NCBI RefSeq assembly: GCF_008327825.1
Contig: NZ_AP019827.1
Location: forward strand, 496,001-560,000
DNA from: Leptotrichia shahii
Lineage (GTDB): Bacteria; Fusobacteriota; Fusobacteriia; Fusobacteriales; Leptotrichiaceae
DNA length: 64,000 bases
Direction: 5' to 3'
The position numbers and the translations under genes were made by a program. A model generated the notes under the pieces. It was given only the letters and a program-made list of their open reading frames with translations. It was not told where the DNA came from and did not search any database. The first letter of the stretch is position 1. Each line of letters starts with the position of its first letter. This document shows, piece by piece, positions 11,000-20,816 of the stretch.

Positions 11000-12510
<1,511 letters not shown>

Positions 12511-12532
12511 CTAAGGAGCATCACGCACTGCT

Positions 12533-12546
12533 TCTTCACATATCTT
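12533..12546 (+). other. 3' arm of 16S processing stem
   Basis: Partner of 10981-10994. It ends just before tRNA-Ile. Confidence 0.65.
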
Positions 12547-12548
12547 GT

Positions 12549-12625
<77 letters not shown>

Positions 12626-12636
12626 TAAGAAGTCTT

Positions 12637-12712
12637 GGGGATATAGCTCAGTTGGGAGAGCGCTGCCCTTGCAAGGCAGAGGTCAGCGGTTCGAACCCGC
12701 TTATCTCCACCA
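12637..12712 (+). tRNA. tRNA-Ala (anticodon UGC)
   Basis: Acceptor arms GGGGATA/TATCTCC, anticodon loop CTTGCAA, discriminator A, CCA encoded. It is the second spacer tRNA, 11 bases after tRNA-Ile. Confidence 0.96.
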
Positions 12713-12722
12713 ATTATTGTTT

Positions 12723-12753
12723 AGGACAATGGGAAATGAATAGTAGGTAAAAG
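12723..12753 (+). other. 5' arm of 23S processing stem
   Basis: About 30 bases, AGGACAATGGGAAATGAATA onward. They pair with 15679-15711 with few mismatches and enclose 23S as an RNase III-type precursor stem. Confidence 0.75.
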
Positions 12754-12786
12754 ATTACAATAAACTGGAGTAAAAGTTATTCTGGA

Positions 12787-15676
<2,890 letters not shown>

Positions 15677-15678
15677 GT

Positions 15679-15711
15679 CTTTTGCCTTTACTATTTATTT
15701 CTCATTGTCTT
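15679..15711 (+). other. 3' arm of 23S processing stem
   Basis: CTTTTGCCTTTACTATTTAT and what follows to CATTGTCTT. It is the partner of 12723-12753. Confidence 0.75.
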
Positions 15712-15730
15712 AATCGGCAGTACTTTTGTT

Positions 15731-15846
15731 AGTTTGGTGATCATAGCGACAGGGATACACCCGGTTACATTCCGAACCCGGCAGTTAAGCCTGTCTTCGC
15801 CTAAAATACTTGGATTCGTCCCGGGAAGATAGGCAGTCGCCAAACT
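15731..15846 (+). rRNA. rrf: 5S ribosomal RNA
   Basis: Helix I AGTTTGGTGA/TCGCCAAACT closes the molecule. The loop sequences CATAGCGACAGGGATACACC and TTCCGAACCCGGCAGTTAAG are typical. Length is about 116 bases. Confidence 0.94.
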
Positions 15847-15861
15847 TTTTTCAATATGTGT

Positions 15862-15938
15862 GTCTCCGTAGCTCAGCTGGTTAGAGCATCTGACTGTTAA
15901 TCAGAGGGCCGCTGGTTCGAGTCCAGCCGGGGACGCCA
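15862..15938 (+). tRNA. tRNA-Asn (anticodon GUU)
   Basis: Acceptor arms GTCTCCG/CGGGGAC, anticodon loop CTGTTAA, T arm GCTGG TTCGAGT CCAGC, discriminator G, CCA encoded. Last gene of the rRNA operon. Confidence 0.96.
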
Positions 15939-16036: not shown

Positions 16037-16054
16037 GTGTAATATATATTACAC
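16037..16054. promoter_or_regulatory. perfect 18-bp palindrome, likely operator
   Basis: GTGTAATATATATTACAC is its own reverse complement. It covers the -35 region of the promoter at 16072-16080, which drives the three-gene operon beginning at 16156. The regulator is unknown. The half-site TGTAA resembles several regulator families, but I could not match a known consensus exactly. Confidence 0.6.
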
Positions 16055-16071: not shown

Positions 16072-16080
16072 TGTTATAAT
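16072..16080 (+). promoter_or_regulatory. extended -10 promoter of the 16156-19153 operon
   Basis: TGTTATAAT: TATAAT with an upstream TGn. There is no good -35, which is where the palindrome 16037-16054 sits. Confidence 0.6.
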
Positions 16081-16155: not shown

Positions 16156-17382
16156 ATGTTTAATTTAGATGATACACTTTATGAGATTATAGAAAAATAT
16201 CCTGAAGCTTTGGATTTTTTTATTGCAAATGGGTTTGAGCAACTTAAAAATAAGCAAATGCTTGAGATTATGGGGAAAAATATTAAGTTACGAATGGCGC
16301 TTATGTCTAAAAAAATTAATCAGGAATTGTTTATTGAGAAACTGGAGACTTTTTTGAAAAAGGATGCGGATATTGATGTTTCGCTAGATGAAAGTAAGGC
16401 TGATGAGAATAGTGACTTAATAATCGAGGGAGTATTGCCTTGTCCTATTAGAATACCACTTTTAGAAGGGATTAAGGAGTGGGTAAATGAGCAGAATGAA
16501 AAAAATGACTATACTATTTCGTATACTTTGAAATCAGCAAATTTAGGACTTGACTGGGTTGTAGAAAAAGTTAAGACAGGAAATCCTGATAAAGTTTCGG
16601 ACGTGCTTCTTTCGGCTGGATTTGAATTATTTTTTGATAAGAATTTGATGGGACAATATATGGAAAATGGTATTTTTGAAACACACCTTGAAAGTATGAA
16701 TAAAGATTTTTGTAACGAAACTATTGACTTGCGAGATCCTAAAAAGCGTTACGCAATAATGGGAGTTGTACCAGCAATATTTTTAATAAACAAGACTTCT
16801 TTAGGTGACAGAAAAGTACCAGAAACTTGGGCAGACTTATTAAATGAAGAATTTGAAGATTCAGTTGCATTACCAATGGCTGATTTGGACTTGTTTAATG
16901 CCCTTCTTGCAAATCTTTACAAAGATTTCGGAATGGAAGGAATACATAAATTGGCACGTTCATATAAAAAGAGCTTGCACCCTGCTCAAATGGTAAAAGC
17001 TAGAACTCGAACGCCAGAAGCCCCTGCTGTCAGTATTATTCCATATTTCTTTTCACAAATGATTGACGGAACAGGAGATTTGGAAGCTGTATGGCCAAAA
17101 GATGGAGCTTTGCTAAGTCCAATATTTATGATTACAAAAAAATCTAAGGCAGATAAAATCAAGCCATTTATGGATTTATTTATGTCAAATGAAATTGGAA
17201 CAATTTTTTCTGCAAACGGAAAATTCCCATCAACAAATCCTAATGTGGATAATCATTTAGAAGAACATCAGAATTTTAAATGGATTGGCTGGGACTACAT
17301 TTATAGCCATGATATTGGGAAAATTATTCGTGAATGTGAAGAAGAATTTAATAATGATGTACAAAAAAGTTTTACAGAATAA
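16156..17382 (+). CDS. leaderless binding-protein-like protein with DUF1858-like N-terminus
   Basis: 408 residues. Residues 1-70 form a small helical domain resembling DUF1858 (MFNLDDTLYEIIEKYPEALDFFIANG). From about 95 onward the protein looks like an ABC solute-binding protein of the iron-type family (LPCPIRIPLLEGIKEWV, VVPAIFLINKTSLG, PETWADLLNEEFEDSVALP, SPIFMITKKSKADKIKPFMDLF). There is no signal peptide or lipobox, so the protein should be cytosolic, which is odd for a binding protein. It opens an operon with a HypB-like GTPase (28 bases on) and an ABC-type ATPase. TAGGAG precedes the ATG. The function is unknown; handling of a metal or metallocofactor is my inference from the partners. 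Confidence 0.75.
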   Translation: MFNLDDTLYEIIEKYPEALDFFIANGFEQLKNKQMLEIMGKNIKLRMALMSKKINQELFIEKLETFLKKDADIDVSLDESKADENSDLIIEGVLPCPIRIPLLEGIKEWVNEQNEKNDYTISYTLKSANLGLDWVVEKVKTGNPDKVSDVLLSAGFELFFDKNLMGQYMENGIFETHLESMNKDFCNETIDLRDPKKRYAIMGVVPAIFLINKTSLGDRKVPETWADLLNEEFEDSVALPMADLDLFNALLANLYKDFGMEGIHKLARSYKKSLHPAQMVKARTRTPEAPAVSIIPYFFSQMIDGTGDLEAVWPKDGALLSPIFMITKKSKADKIKPFMDLFMSNEIGTIFSANGKFPSTNPNVDNHLEEHQNFKWIGWDYIYSHDIGKIIRECEEEFNNDVQKSFTE

Positions 17383-17409
17383 TTTTTAAACAAAAAAAGG
17401 AGAAAAATT

Positions 17410-18102
17410 ATGAATTTGATAATATTTTCAGGCCCACCATCATCAGGAAAAACAAGCGTTATCCTAAAAACAGTAGAATCCTTGAAATCACAAGGAATGT
17501 CAGTGGGAGTAGTAAAATTTGACTGTCTTTATACAGATGACGATAAATTATATGCAAAGGCAGGAATTCCAGTAAAAAAAGGAATTTCAGGAGCTTTATG
17601 TCCAGACCATTTCTTCGTGTCAAATATTGAGGAAGTCGTGCAATGGGGAAACAGCCTTGGGCTTTCAATATTAATTACTGAATCAGCAGGACTTTGCAAT
17701 AGATGTTCACCATATATCAAGGACATCAAGGGAGTCTGTGTAATCGACAATTTATCAGGAATTAATACGCCTAAAAAGATTGGACCATTATTAAAAGCAG
17801 CTGATATTGTGATTATTACCAAAGGAGATATTGTTTCACAAGCTGAACGTGAAGTTTTTGCCTCACGTGTGAACTCCGTAAATCCAAAAGCTGTAACGAT
17901 GCATGTTAATGGGCTTACTGGTCAGGGAGCGTACGAATTAAGTACACTTCTTTATGAGAAAGAACTGGAAATAGACAGCGTTCAGGGAATGGAACTTAGA
18001 TTTCCAATGCCATCGGCACTTTGCTCTTACTGCTTAGGAGAGAAGAGAATCGGTGAAAAATATCAGATGGGTAATGTCCGAAAAATGAATTTACAGCAAT
18101 AA
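17410..18102 (+). CDS. HypB/CobW-like P-loop GTPase with two CxxC pairs
   Basis: 230 residues. Walker A GPPSSGKTS lies at residues 7-15. ESAGLCNRCSPYI follows at about 94-106, with a cysteine pair where HypB-type proteins have a Cys motif. A G4-like TKGD comes next, then HVNGLTGQGAYEL resembling the HypB C-terminal switch. A second pair, CSYC, lies near residue 205. The fold and order match SIMIBI-class GTPases such as HypB and UreG, which insert nickel into enzymes. No hydrogenase or urease genes are nearby. The four cysteines could bind a metal. It is the middle gene of the trio, with good AAGGAG and spacing of 27 and 34 bases to its neighbours. The name is uncertain; GTP-binding protein is safe. 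Confidence 0.75.
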   Translation: MNLIIFSGPPSSGKTSVILKTVESLKSQGMSVGVVKFDCLYTDDDKLYAKAGIPVKKGISGALCPDHFFVSNIEEVVQWGNSLGLSILITESAGLCNRCSPYIKDIKGVCVIDNLSGINTPKKIGPLLKAADIVIITKGDIVSQAEREVFASRVNSVNPKAVTMHVNGLTGQGAYELSTLLYEKELEIDSVQGMELRFPMPSALCSYCLGEKRIGEKYQMGNVRKMNLQQ

Positions 18103-18136
18103 AAAAATAGATAAAAATAATAAAAAAGGAAAAAAT

Positions 18137-19153
18137 ATGAAAAATAACGATTTAATAAATAAATTGACTATTAGTGAACTTAGCAATAAATATCCCTTTG
18201 CAGAAAACTTTTTTACTGAAAACCACTTACCTGTGGAAACTTTTCAGGATAAGACATTTCACGAGTTCATCGTAACTTTTGCAGAAGATAAAATCGAAGA
18301 CTTTGCACTGGATGTGGAAAAAATTGAAGAAAGTCTTGTTGACTACATTGAACAGATGAAACTTTTTTTGGGAATGGAAGAGGAAAATTCAATTGATCTG
18401 CTTACAATCCTTGCTGGACAGGATAAATCAGGAAATAAAGAGGGATTTGAAAGGCTCGACATTCATAAATCAGAAATTATTTCCATTGTAGGACCTACAG
18501 GCTCTGGAAAATCAAGACTTCTTGCCGACATCGAATGGACTGCCCAGAAAGACACTCCAACACAGCGTCAAATCCTTATAAACGGTGAACTTCCAGACAA
18601 AAAATGGCGTTATTCCTCAAACAACAAATTAGTCGCACAACTATCACAAAATATGAATTTTGTTATGGATTTATCGGTAAAGGAATTTCTAGAACTGCAT
18701 GCACAAAGCCGAATGATTGAAGACATTGACGAAACTGTGGAAAAAATCATTACCGCCGCAAACAATCTGGCTGGAGAGCAATTTGACTTAACTACTGCAA
18801 TCACAGCCCTAAGTGGTGGACAATCCCGTGCTTTAATGATTGCCGACACAGCCATTTTAAGCTCATCTCCAATTGTCCTAATCGACGAAATTGAAAATGC
18901 AGGAATTGACAGGAAAAAAGCCTTGGAATTACTTGTTTCATCTGACAAAATTGTATTAATGGCAACACATGACCCAACATTAGCATTGATAGCAGATAAA
19001 CGAATTATAATAAAGAATGGTGGAATTAGTAAAATTATTACGACAAGCCCTGAAGAAAAGAAAATTTTGAAAAAACTGGATGAAATGGATGATGTTATTC
19101 AGAAGATGAGAAGTGATTTGAGAAAAGGGGAAGTTTTGAGAAATGATTTTTAA
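18137..19153 (+). CDS. ABC-type ATPase with DUF1858-like N-terminal extension
   Basis: 338 residues. The N-terminal 75 residues (ISELSNKYPFAENFFTENHL) resemble the helical domain of the first gene's product. An ABC nucleotide-binding domain follows: Walker A GPTGSGKS at 119-126, signature LSGGQ at 225-229, Walker B IVLIDEIENAG with D250/E251, and the switch His in ATHDP at 278. There are no membrane segments, and no permease gene is in the operon. The ATPase therefore probably acts on soluble partners rather than in membrane transport. Its shared N-terminal module with the first protein suggests the two bind each other or a common partner. It ends the operon; the convergent gene downstream is separated by a palindromic repeat. 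Confidence 0.8.
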   Translation: MKNNDLINKLTISELSNKYPFAENFFTENHLPVETFQDKTFHEFIVTFAEDKIEDFALDVEKIEESLVDYIEQMKLFLGMEEENSIDLLTILAGQDKSGNKEGFERLDIHKSEIISIVGPTGSGKSRLLADIEWTAQKDTPTQRQILINGELPDKKWRYSSNNKLVAQLSQNMNFVMDLSVKEFLELHAQSRMIEDIDETVEKIITAANNLAGEQFDLTTAITALSGGQSRALMIADTAILSSSPIVLIDEIENAGIDRKKALELLVSSDKIVLMATHDPTLALIADKRIIIKNGGISKIITTSPEEKKILKKLDEMDDVIQKMRSDLRKGEVLRNDF

Positions 19154-20126: not shown

Positions 20127-20816
20127 CTAAATAGTTTCCTTAAACATTATTATAAATACAAAAATTAGTAAAATACAACAAATTAATAGAGAAATTATCC
20201 CATAAATATTTACTAAAATTACACAAAGTAATGATCCAATAAGGAAAAATCCGTCTAAACCTAAATATATCCAAAAACTTTGTAAATGTGATCGGTCTTT
20301 AGTTTTGATGTATTTAACTAAATTGTCCATTCCGCTTCGCAGATTTCCTGTACACATTGTAGTAGCTCCTGCGAGACCTCTAATTTTTCTGAAGCCTTGA
20401 TATTGAATTGCGGCAATGAAGGACATGATTATATTTATTATGATATTCCAGTTTCCACTTGGAACAAAAGAAATAAAAAACATTATTATAATTTGGTAGA
20501 TTATTACAATTTGCTGCCATCTAAAAATTTTATGTTTTTCAAATCTTGTTTTGATAAGTTCAGTGAATAATATTCCAAGTGCAAAAAATAAAATTGGCAT
20601 AAAGTAATTAAAGGATTTCGCCCATTCTCTTTTTCCTAAATTTATTGCAAGATAGACAATATTTCCAGTTTGTGCATTAGCAAGCACTTTTCCACGTGTA
20701 ATAAATGTGTATGCATCCATAAATCCTCCGACCATGCACAGCATCATTCCTAATCGAAATGTTTCTGGAGGATATTCTTCTCCATTAAATAAAATTTTTT
20801 TTATTTTTTTACTCAT
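20127..20816 (-). CDS. YoaK/DUF1275 family membrane protein
   Basis: 229 residues with about six hydrophobic segments. Family features are GFMDAYTFITRGKVLANAQTGNIV near the N-terminus and ATTMCTGNLRSG in the middle. The role of the family is not established; some members are described as transporters. It lies between an orphan response regulator (45 bases upstream) and a methyltransferase, probably in one transcript, so its expression may follow that regulator. AAAGGA precedes the ATG. Confidence 0.85.
   Translation of the reverse strand: MSKKIKKILFNGEEYPPETFRLGMMLCMVGGFMDAYTFITRGKVLANAQTGNIVYLAINLGKREWAKSFNYFMPILFFALGILFTELIKTRFEKHKIFRWQQIVIIYQIIIMFFISFVPSGNWNIIINIIMSFIAAIQYQGFRKIRGLAGATTMCTGNLRSGMDNLVKYIKTKDRSHLQSFWIYLGLDGFFLIGSLLCVILVNIYGIISLLICCILLIFVFIIMFKETI

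Follow-up and report, generated by a model that had tools for sequence, protein, structure and literature searches.

The stretch of DNA analysed here (the window) comprises 64 kb of Leptotrichia shahii contig NZ_AP019827.1, positions 496,001–560,000, and our subject is a three-gene operon within it that encodes a binding-protein-like protein (gene 1), a HypB/UreG-like GTPase (gene 2) and an ATP-binding cassette (ABC) ATPase (gene 3) (Table 1). A search of the open-access literature found no description of this trio. Each of the three open reading frames (ORFs) has a start codon and a ribosome-binding-like sequence, and the gaps between them are 27 nt (genes 1–2) and 34 nt (genes 2–3). The only promoter of convincing architecture is an extended −10 box with a poor −35, which was missing from the output of a generic sigma-70 scan; the close spacing under one promoter described in an earlier note on this DNA is thus borne out. 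The centre of the predicted operator lies at about −41.5 relative to this promoter, the class II position of CRP/FNR activators. On the trio's own strand no adjoining membrane gene was found when the ORF list was inspected by eye, again as the earlier note had it, and the predicted membrane protein at 20127–20816 (also by eye) is on the opposite strand.

Table 1 Features of the three-gene operon and its promoter region in the window
Feature	Position	Strand	Size or basis
Gene 1, cytosolic solute-binding protein (SBP_bac_6, ferric-binding-protein fold) with N-terminal DUF1858	16156..17382	+	408 aa
Gene 2, HypB/UreG-like G3E GTPase with invariant CPDH (64–67), C96, C99, C205, C208	17410..18102	+	230 aa
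Gene 3, ABC ATPase with DUF1858-like N-terminal domain	18137..19153	+	338 aa
Predicted operator GTGTAATATATATTACAC for a CRP/FNR-family HcpR-like activator, 18-bp perfect palindrome	16037..16054		Motif likeness to HcpR2 consensus
Extended −10 box TGTTATAAT (TGT-TATAAT)	16072..16080	+	First −10 base is the 30th from the operator centre

Gene 1 matches SBP_bac_6 (PF13343, E 2.5e-81) and DUF1858 (PF08984, E 5.3e-16). Hydropathy gives no indication of a signal peptide: within the first 60 residues the 17-residue mean peaks at 0.55, compared with 2.4–2.7 for three exported binding proteins encoded near related modules, so the earlier description of a binding-protein-like protein lacking an export signal holds. 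Over 57 aligned rows of homologues, some with N-terminal extensions trimmed, the corresponding mean is at most 0.91, and of the untrimmed homologous ORFs one in 104 exceeds 1.6, within a 28-residue extension (L051). The model (predicted local distance difference test, pLDDT, 85.7) has the fold of P5PA and then of ferric-binding proteins in a structure search, with sequence identities of 10–18% over the 50 best matches; P5PA, at 17% identity, is the top match of the binding domain by both structure and sequence profile. A PCP motif (C96) is invariant and H275 nearly invariant over the 57 rows. Ferric-binding proteins have a Tyr pair, which could not be assigned in gene 1 from the profile alignments, so that iron is no more than a possible ligand.

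Gene 2 falls within the CobW/HypB/UreG superfamily (PF02492, E 4.1e-11, 43.2 bits against a cut-off of 20.7) and contains two CxxC pairs, C96/C99 and C205/C208, in agreement with the HypB-like P-loop GTPase that had been proposed. It is not a member of the HypB equivalog TIGR00073, scoring 41.8 bits against a curated cut-off of 121.2, and its 26.5 bits against ureG are likewise below the curated cut-off of 204.2. The six best Foldseek matches of the model (pLDDT 88.7) are all HypB or UreG chains, and by sequence profile these two are the nearest solved relatives over the full domain; repeated RecA chains outscore them, over the first 60 residues only. In HypB a Cys-His and a Cys have a metal role, and the profile alignment pairs them with the CPDH and AGLCxRC of gene 2. 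The residues C64-P-D-H67, C96, C99, C205 and C208 are invariant across 48 aligned GTPases of all the module classes described below, and metal binding and GTP hydrolysis are putative activities of gene 2.

Gene 3 matches ABC_tran (E 7.4e-16). Its Walker A (GPTGSGKS), LSGGQ, Walker B and H-loop are all present, as previously read, and the Q-loop region is intact as well. The earlier note had also seen a DUF1858-like domain at the N-termini of proteins 1 and 3. This is clear for gene 1; in gene 3 the Pfam search did not detect DUF1858 in the window protein, and the resemblance comes from 5 of 15 homologues that do match it (best E 6.5e-5) and from a profile–profile match with the DUF1858 of gene 1 (probability 88%, E 2.9e-6), which together support a related domain in gene 3. 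In three Fusobacteriales loci (L027–L029) the ATPase lacks the DUF1858-like N-terminus while gene 1 retains its own, and the domain is therefore not essential. Two of 15 gene 1 DUF1858 domains also weakly matched ScdA_N (best E 0.023), which forms the N-terminus of RIC, a protein that repairs iron centres.

The trio is widely conserved. Its GTPase is found in 34 of 60 Fusobacteriales genomes, and in all 31 of these 34 that were fetched the three genes are adjacent and in the same order. Among 84,980 species genomes scanned, 495 relatives were confirmed. The best 80 loci were retrieved, and in 79 of them the genes are consecutive on one strand, the exception (L071) stopping at a contig edge; entries with missing neighbours were traced to filtering of overlapping ORFs or to contig ends and were recounted by tblastn. 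These 80 loci include Tissierellia, Peptostreptococcus, Lacrimispora, Pectinatus, Cloacimonadota and Fermentibacterota, with GTPase identities of ~78–85% outside Leptotrichiaceae, and named Leptotrichia records carry near-identical operons. A plasmid search gave a single match, a 2.1-Mb Fusobacterium vincentii replicon without an annotated feature in the stretch (L203). The neighbourhood comparison across anaerobes that the earlier note had proposed thus finds the genes together, lack of conservation beyond the strain having been named there as a ground for giving up its idea, and a conserved soluble operon is well supported by comparison of the sequences.

Related modules outside this group suggest, from their neighbourhoods, four classes, of which class I is the window's kind; further full-length relatives were sampled in 249 genomes of one phylum, and a search of the taxonomic class to which one class II genome belongs yielded 3 genomes and little information. 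The ATPase–GTPase pair is kept throughout. Class II (50–68% identity) in most cases adds a signal-less SBP_bac_6 protein (by Pfam in two, by BLAST in the others) and lies beside FecCD/Peripla_BP_2, NitT/TauT-like or Opp-like importers, with a recurrent S-adenosylmethionine (SAM) methyltransferase; class IV is the single locus L197 (class II/IV loci: L183–L188, L190, L192–L197, L204–L214). A DUF364/DUF4213 'putative heavy-metal chelation' protein is encoded in L188, with a second in L214 by eye, and a tungsten-type aldehyde ferredoxin oxidoreductase occurs once, in L211. In class III (36–41%) the ATPase and GTPase are followed by an iron–sulphur (Fe-S) protein of ~220 residues (W-x-PPGKNCGLCG; PF04060 confirmed in one) and there is no binding protein, an arrangement seen in 12 loci with gene lists (L170, L172–L174, L176, L182, L191, L198–L202); its GTPase is present in 19 of the 249 genomes. 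Two side observations concern class II: L183 has two complete modules of different subtypes, 7 kb apart, around a single FecCD-type importer, and L190 encodes a helix-turn-helix protein resembling ModE by eye (Pfam, HTH_1).

A conserved permease gene in the operon would have counted against the idea of a system without a membrane component. Beside class I no permease family recurs, save for a mixed ABC-transporter cluster at scattered positions, and neither the exported binding protein nor the operon-encoded permease of an ABC importer is found in the trio. Permease genes do come into view at 15 loci of classes II and IV (L183, L188, L190, L192–L197, L204, L205, L207–L210; identified with Pfam, with BLAST or by eye), and in 15 of 15 a separate ATPase gene accompanies them. 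These importers have their own ATPase, and therefore the module ATPase is not their missing engine.

The palindrome upstream of the trio resembles the HcpR2 motif, given as GTAACnnnnGTTAC in the part of Rodionov et al. (2005; PMC1274295) available. The 250 bp upstream of gene 1 were searched in 108 loci, one of them from a named plasmid collection, after leaving out those with less than 150 bp upstream or no mappable gene 1 start and five duplicates. The exact motif (GTAACN4GTTAC) is present in 52 of these, against none for the reversed pattern and a mononucleotide-shuffle mean of 0.025; the plasmid-derived locus L203 contributed one exact operator. The remaining 1.65 Mb of these loci contains 31 further exact sites, 24 of which are 75–125 bp before hcp. 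GTTGY-N4-RCAAC is found in 22 of the 56 loci that lack the exact motif (shuffle mean 0.005), in 18 cases at 99–121 bp upstream; two sites of this type also occur in class II loci (L196, L209). A generic form, GTWRY-N4-RYWAC, which includes the exact one, is present in 83 of the 108 (control 0), a descriptive count since the form was written after the variants had been seen. The independent test is the spacing to the −10: in 74 of the 83 loci a box resembling TATAAT, with one mismatch at most, begins 28–31 bases from the centre of the operator, compared with a mean of 10.8 and a maximum of 20 for shuffled flanks, and an offset of 30 alone accounts for 57 loci.

The operator is thus that of the HcpR2 regulon for the trio family, the window itself having a variant with the offset of 30. 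The exact motif is present in related Leptotrichiaceae (L014, L016, L017, L037), and operators of other Leptotrichia (L005, L006, L009) are intermediate between the two. In the window's genome the trio site is the sole occurrence of GTGTAA-N6-TTACAC. The looser TGTAAY-N4-RTTACA occurs 7 times against 3 in the control, and as 4 of the 6 non-trio sites are inside ORFs we claim no wider regulon. Separately, the same genome has an exact HcpR2 motif, TGTAACTTTGGTTACA, at C1:1896133–1896148 (G000, L221), ~300 bp upstream of genes for a DtxR-like regulator and a metal-ABC binding protein (families assigned by eye); this could be a second target or a chance occurrence.

The distribution of a candidate regulator agrees with the operator. 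Homologues of a regulator encoded beside the trio and hcp in L033 were found (E up to 1e-8) in 32 of 34 trio-bearing genomes and in 12 of 26 others, 3 of the 12 being weak matches (Fisher p 5e-5, kinship ignored). The window's genome has such an HcpR-like regulator at C1:197321–197935, 41% identical to that of L033, and in another genome (G035) it is 2.3 kb downstream of the trio. CRP/FNR-type regulators near the trio amount to 14 genes in 13 loci, and L102 has an Rrf2-family regulator. In C. difficile, HcpR activates frdX-hcp on nitric oxide (NO), and frdX and hcp are the only direct targets named in the available part of that study (PMC12915319). These comparisons lend good support to control of the trio operon through an HcpR-type activator site, and we strongly predict that it responds to NO. 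The window's genome combines the operator variant and an HcpR-like regulator with the absence, in a genome search, of any Prismane-family (hcp) gene, and the trio is therefore predicted to be an effector of the nitrosative-stress defence in its own right.

Elsewhere hcp and the trio are often close. In 35 of 100 class I loci, many of them shortened by contig ends, hcp is within ~6 kb on the same strand, on either side of the trio, and these loci are from Fusobacteriales, Tissierellia, Negativicutes (Pectinatus) and Cloacimonadota; the same operator motif is common to both. Of the Fusobacteriales genomes 19 have both trio and Hcp, 15 the trio only, 16 Hcp only and 10 neither, and Hcp is absent from 10 of 13 sampled Leptotrichia genomes. 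Hcp as an obligatory partner was rejected because 15 of 34 trio-bearing Fusobacteriales genomes are without it. The co-occurrence outside Fusobacteriales (13 of 13) was not counted, since the family is present in 206 of the 249 genomes of the sampled phylum and PF03063 also covers CO dehydrogenases. A small zinc-ribbon gene comes after the trio at 40 of 100 loci; among the 60 Fusobacteriales genomes 13 have it, all of them trio-bearing and 7 with the gene away from the trio (Fisher p 2.5e-4). One of the six queries in the Pfam search that showed its weak HypA likeness was a stray 33-residue fragment and was ignored.

We consider that the chances are about even that the trio is a soluble, nucleotide-driven machine for a metal or metallocofactor which forms part of the defence against NO. 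Capture and delivery of a metal or metallocofactor is the mechanism that best fits the folds, conserved residues and neighbours, and we infer metal handling because of the HypB-like fold, the invariant Cys/His residues, the HypA-like zinc ribbon of many relatives and the metal-importer neighbours of the paralogues. The earlier proposal of a cytosolic metal-delivery trio therefore stands as to a soluble, conserved unit with a metallochaperone-like GTPase, the delivery itself being its inferred part. In such a mechanism, NO would act through the HcpR-like regulator to switch on the operon. Gene 1 would capture iron, or a complex of iron or another metal, in the cytosol, possibly after its release from NO-damaged centres, and the GTPase would take or gate the metal through its Cys/His site, assisted in many species by the zinc-ribbon protein. 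The ABC ATPase, perhaps docked on gene 1 through the paired DUF1858-like domains, would power the transfer to client metalloproteins. Where Hcp is present it is a candidate client and can be one, though not the sole one; in Leptotrichia the clients would be other metalloenzymes, since 10 of the 13 sampled genomes lack it.

Several observations weigh against this reading. The gene contents of Fusobacteriales show no co-occurrence of trio and Hcp (n = 60, Fisher p 0.79), and the Hcp/CO dehydrogenase family is so common in the sampled phylum that its presence there is uninformative. The resemblance of the zinc ribbon to HypA does not reach the Pfam cut-off (20.6 and 18.7 bits against 28.9), and neither the window's genome nor any of the 13 sampled Leptotrichia genomes has this protein. 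The generic operator is absent upstream in 25 of the 108 loci; the loci include related species, and as they share descent the operator counts are not independent. The operator in the window is itself degenerate, one base per half away from HcpR2. No exact HcpR2 motif is present in 694 kb of paralogous loci (class II/IV, 384 kb; class III, 310 kb), and NO control is therefore not a property of the whole family. The closest solved relatives of gene 1 include proteins that bind pyridoxal phosphate, sugar phosphate and polyamine, and a non-metal ligand is therefore possible.

This last point could be taken further: the trio might be a route for an organic cofactor or a non-metal anion, such as pyridoxal phosphate or a phosphorylated compound, that nitrosative stress makes necessary. 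P5PA as the top match of gene 1 speaks for it; the identity is just 17%, however, and the HypB-like partner would be left unexplained, which makes it very unlikely in our view. A dedicated maturation factor for Hcp, building or inserting its Fe-S-O cluster, would account for the adjacency of hcp and the shared operator, and Hcp shares a family with nickel CO dehydrogenase, an enzyme with known nucleoside triphosphatase or nickel chaperones (PMC6344411, available in part). Against this, the trio-bearing Fusobacteriales genomes without Hcp include the window's own, and the 16 with Hcp only lack the trio; we regard such a factor as unlikely, and as the sole function of the trio it is already disfavoured.

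Gene 1 and the ATPase might serve an ABC importer that has its permease gene at another place in the genome, given the intact ABC motifs and Q-loop region and the permeases adjoining paralogous modules. The gene 1 N-terminus is not hydrophobic, however, the importers of the paralogous loci have their own ATPase wherever a permease is in view, and beside class I only the scattered mixed cluster is seen, so that we consider this highly improbable. Binding-protein folds can also act as sensors, and one of the top 50 structural matches of gene 1 is a two-component-system protein (6lkg). Gene 1 might accordingly sense a cytosolic metabolite, with the two nucleotide hydrolases relaying or regulating and no metal being moved. 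The invariant Cys/His set of the GTPase, the weakly HypA-like zinc ribbon and the metal-related neighbours of the paralogous modules argue against such a switch, which we hold to be quite unlikely.

More speculatively than the role in NO defence, which we still prefer, the four classes may together be an undescribed class of soluble metal-relay machines using ATP and GTP, widespread in anaerobes, in which an ABC ATPase and a HypB-like GTPase work with interchangeable capture subunits. Class I would then be NO-induced, salvage or rebuild damaged metal centres, and replace Hcp as the main HcpR target in Leptotrichia. We think this possible rather than probable, and are equally tentative about the capture subunits, which would be a cytosolic binding protein for classes I, II and IV and the Fe-S protein for class III. 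Should the metal reading be right, energy-driven metal handling would join the nitrosative-stress defence of anaerobes, including oral and gut bacteria, where the main HcpR targets described so far are Hcp and a ferredoxin-like partner, and an ABC ATPase and a binding protein would cooperate in the cytosol without a membrane channel. NO would provide a first physiological condition for the study of a widely conserved operon with transporter-like products.

As to the surroundings of the operon in the window, a tRNA-Asn gene 5' of the trio ends at 15938. The ORFs in 12294–15310 and 15569–15832 overlap or flank tRNA-Ile, tRNA-Ala and tRNA-Asn in what by eye looks like an rRNA operon, and are probably not genes.

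Among known systems, the trio has in common with the HcpR regulon (hcp, frdX) the predicted operator and the regulator family, with hcp often adjacent; it differs in not being named as a member in the available parts of the main text of PMC1274295 or PMC12915319. Gene 1 shares the fold of FbpA, FutA and AfuA, the binding proteins of ABC importers, from which it is distinguished by the lack of an export signal, the extra DUF1858 and the absence of a permease with the adjacent ABC ATPase. HypB and UreG, which act with HypA and UreE, resemble the trio in the GTPase fold, in the positions of the HypB Cys-His and Cys and, in many species, in the weakly HypA-like zinc-ribbon partner, whereas the trio GTPase has extra conserved cysteines in its two CxxC pairs, scores far below the hypB and ureG cut-offs and is constantly joined by an ABC ATPase and by a binding protein. 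The SufBCD system of Fe-S assembly likewise employs a soluble ABC ATPase, SufC, on metal clusters with no transport (PMC9164220, available in part); the three genes of the trio include no SufB or SufD, and a binding protein and a GTPase are found in their place.

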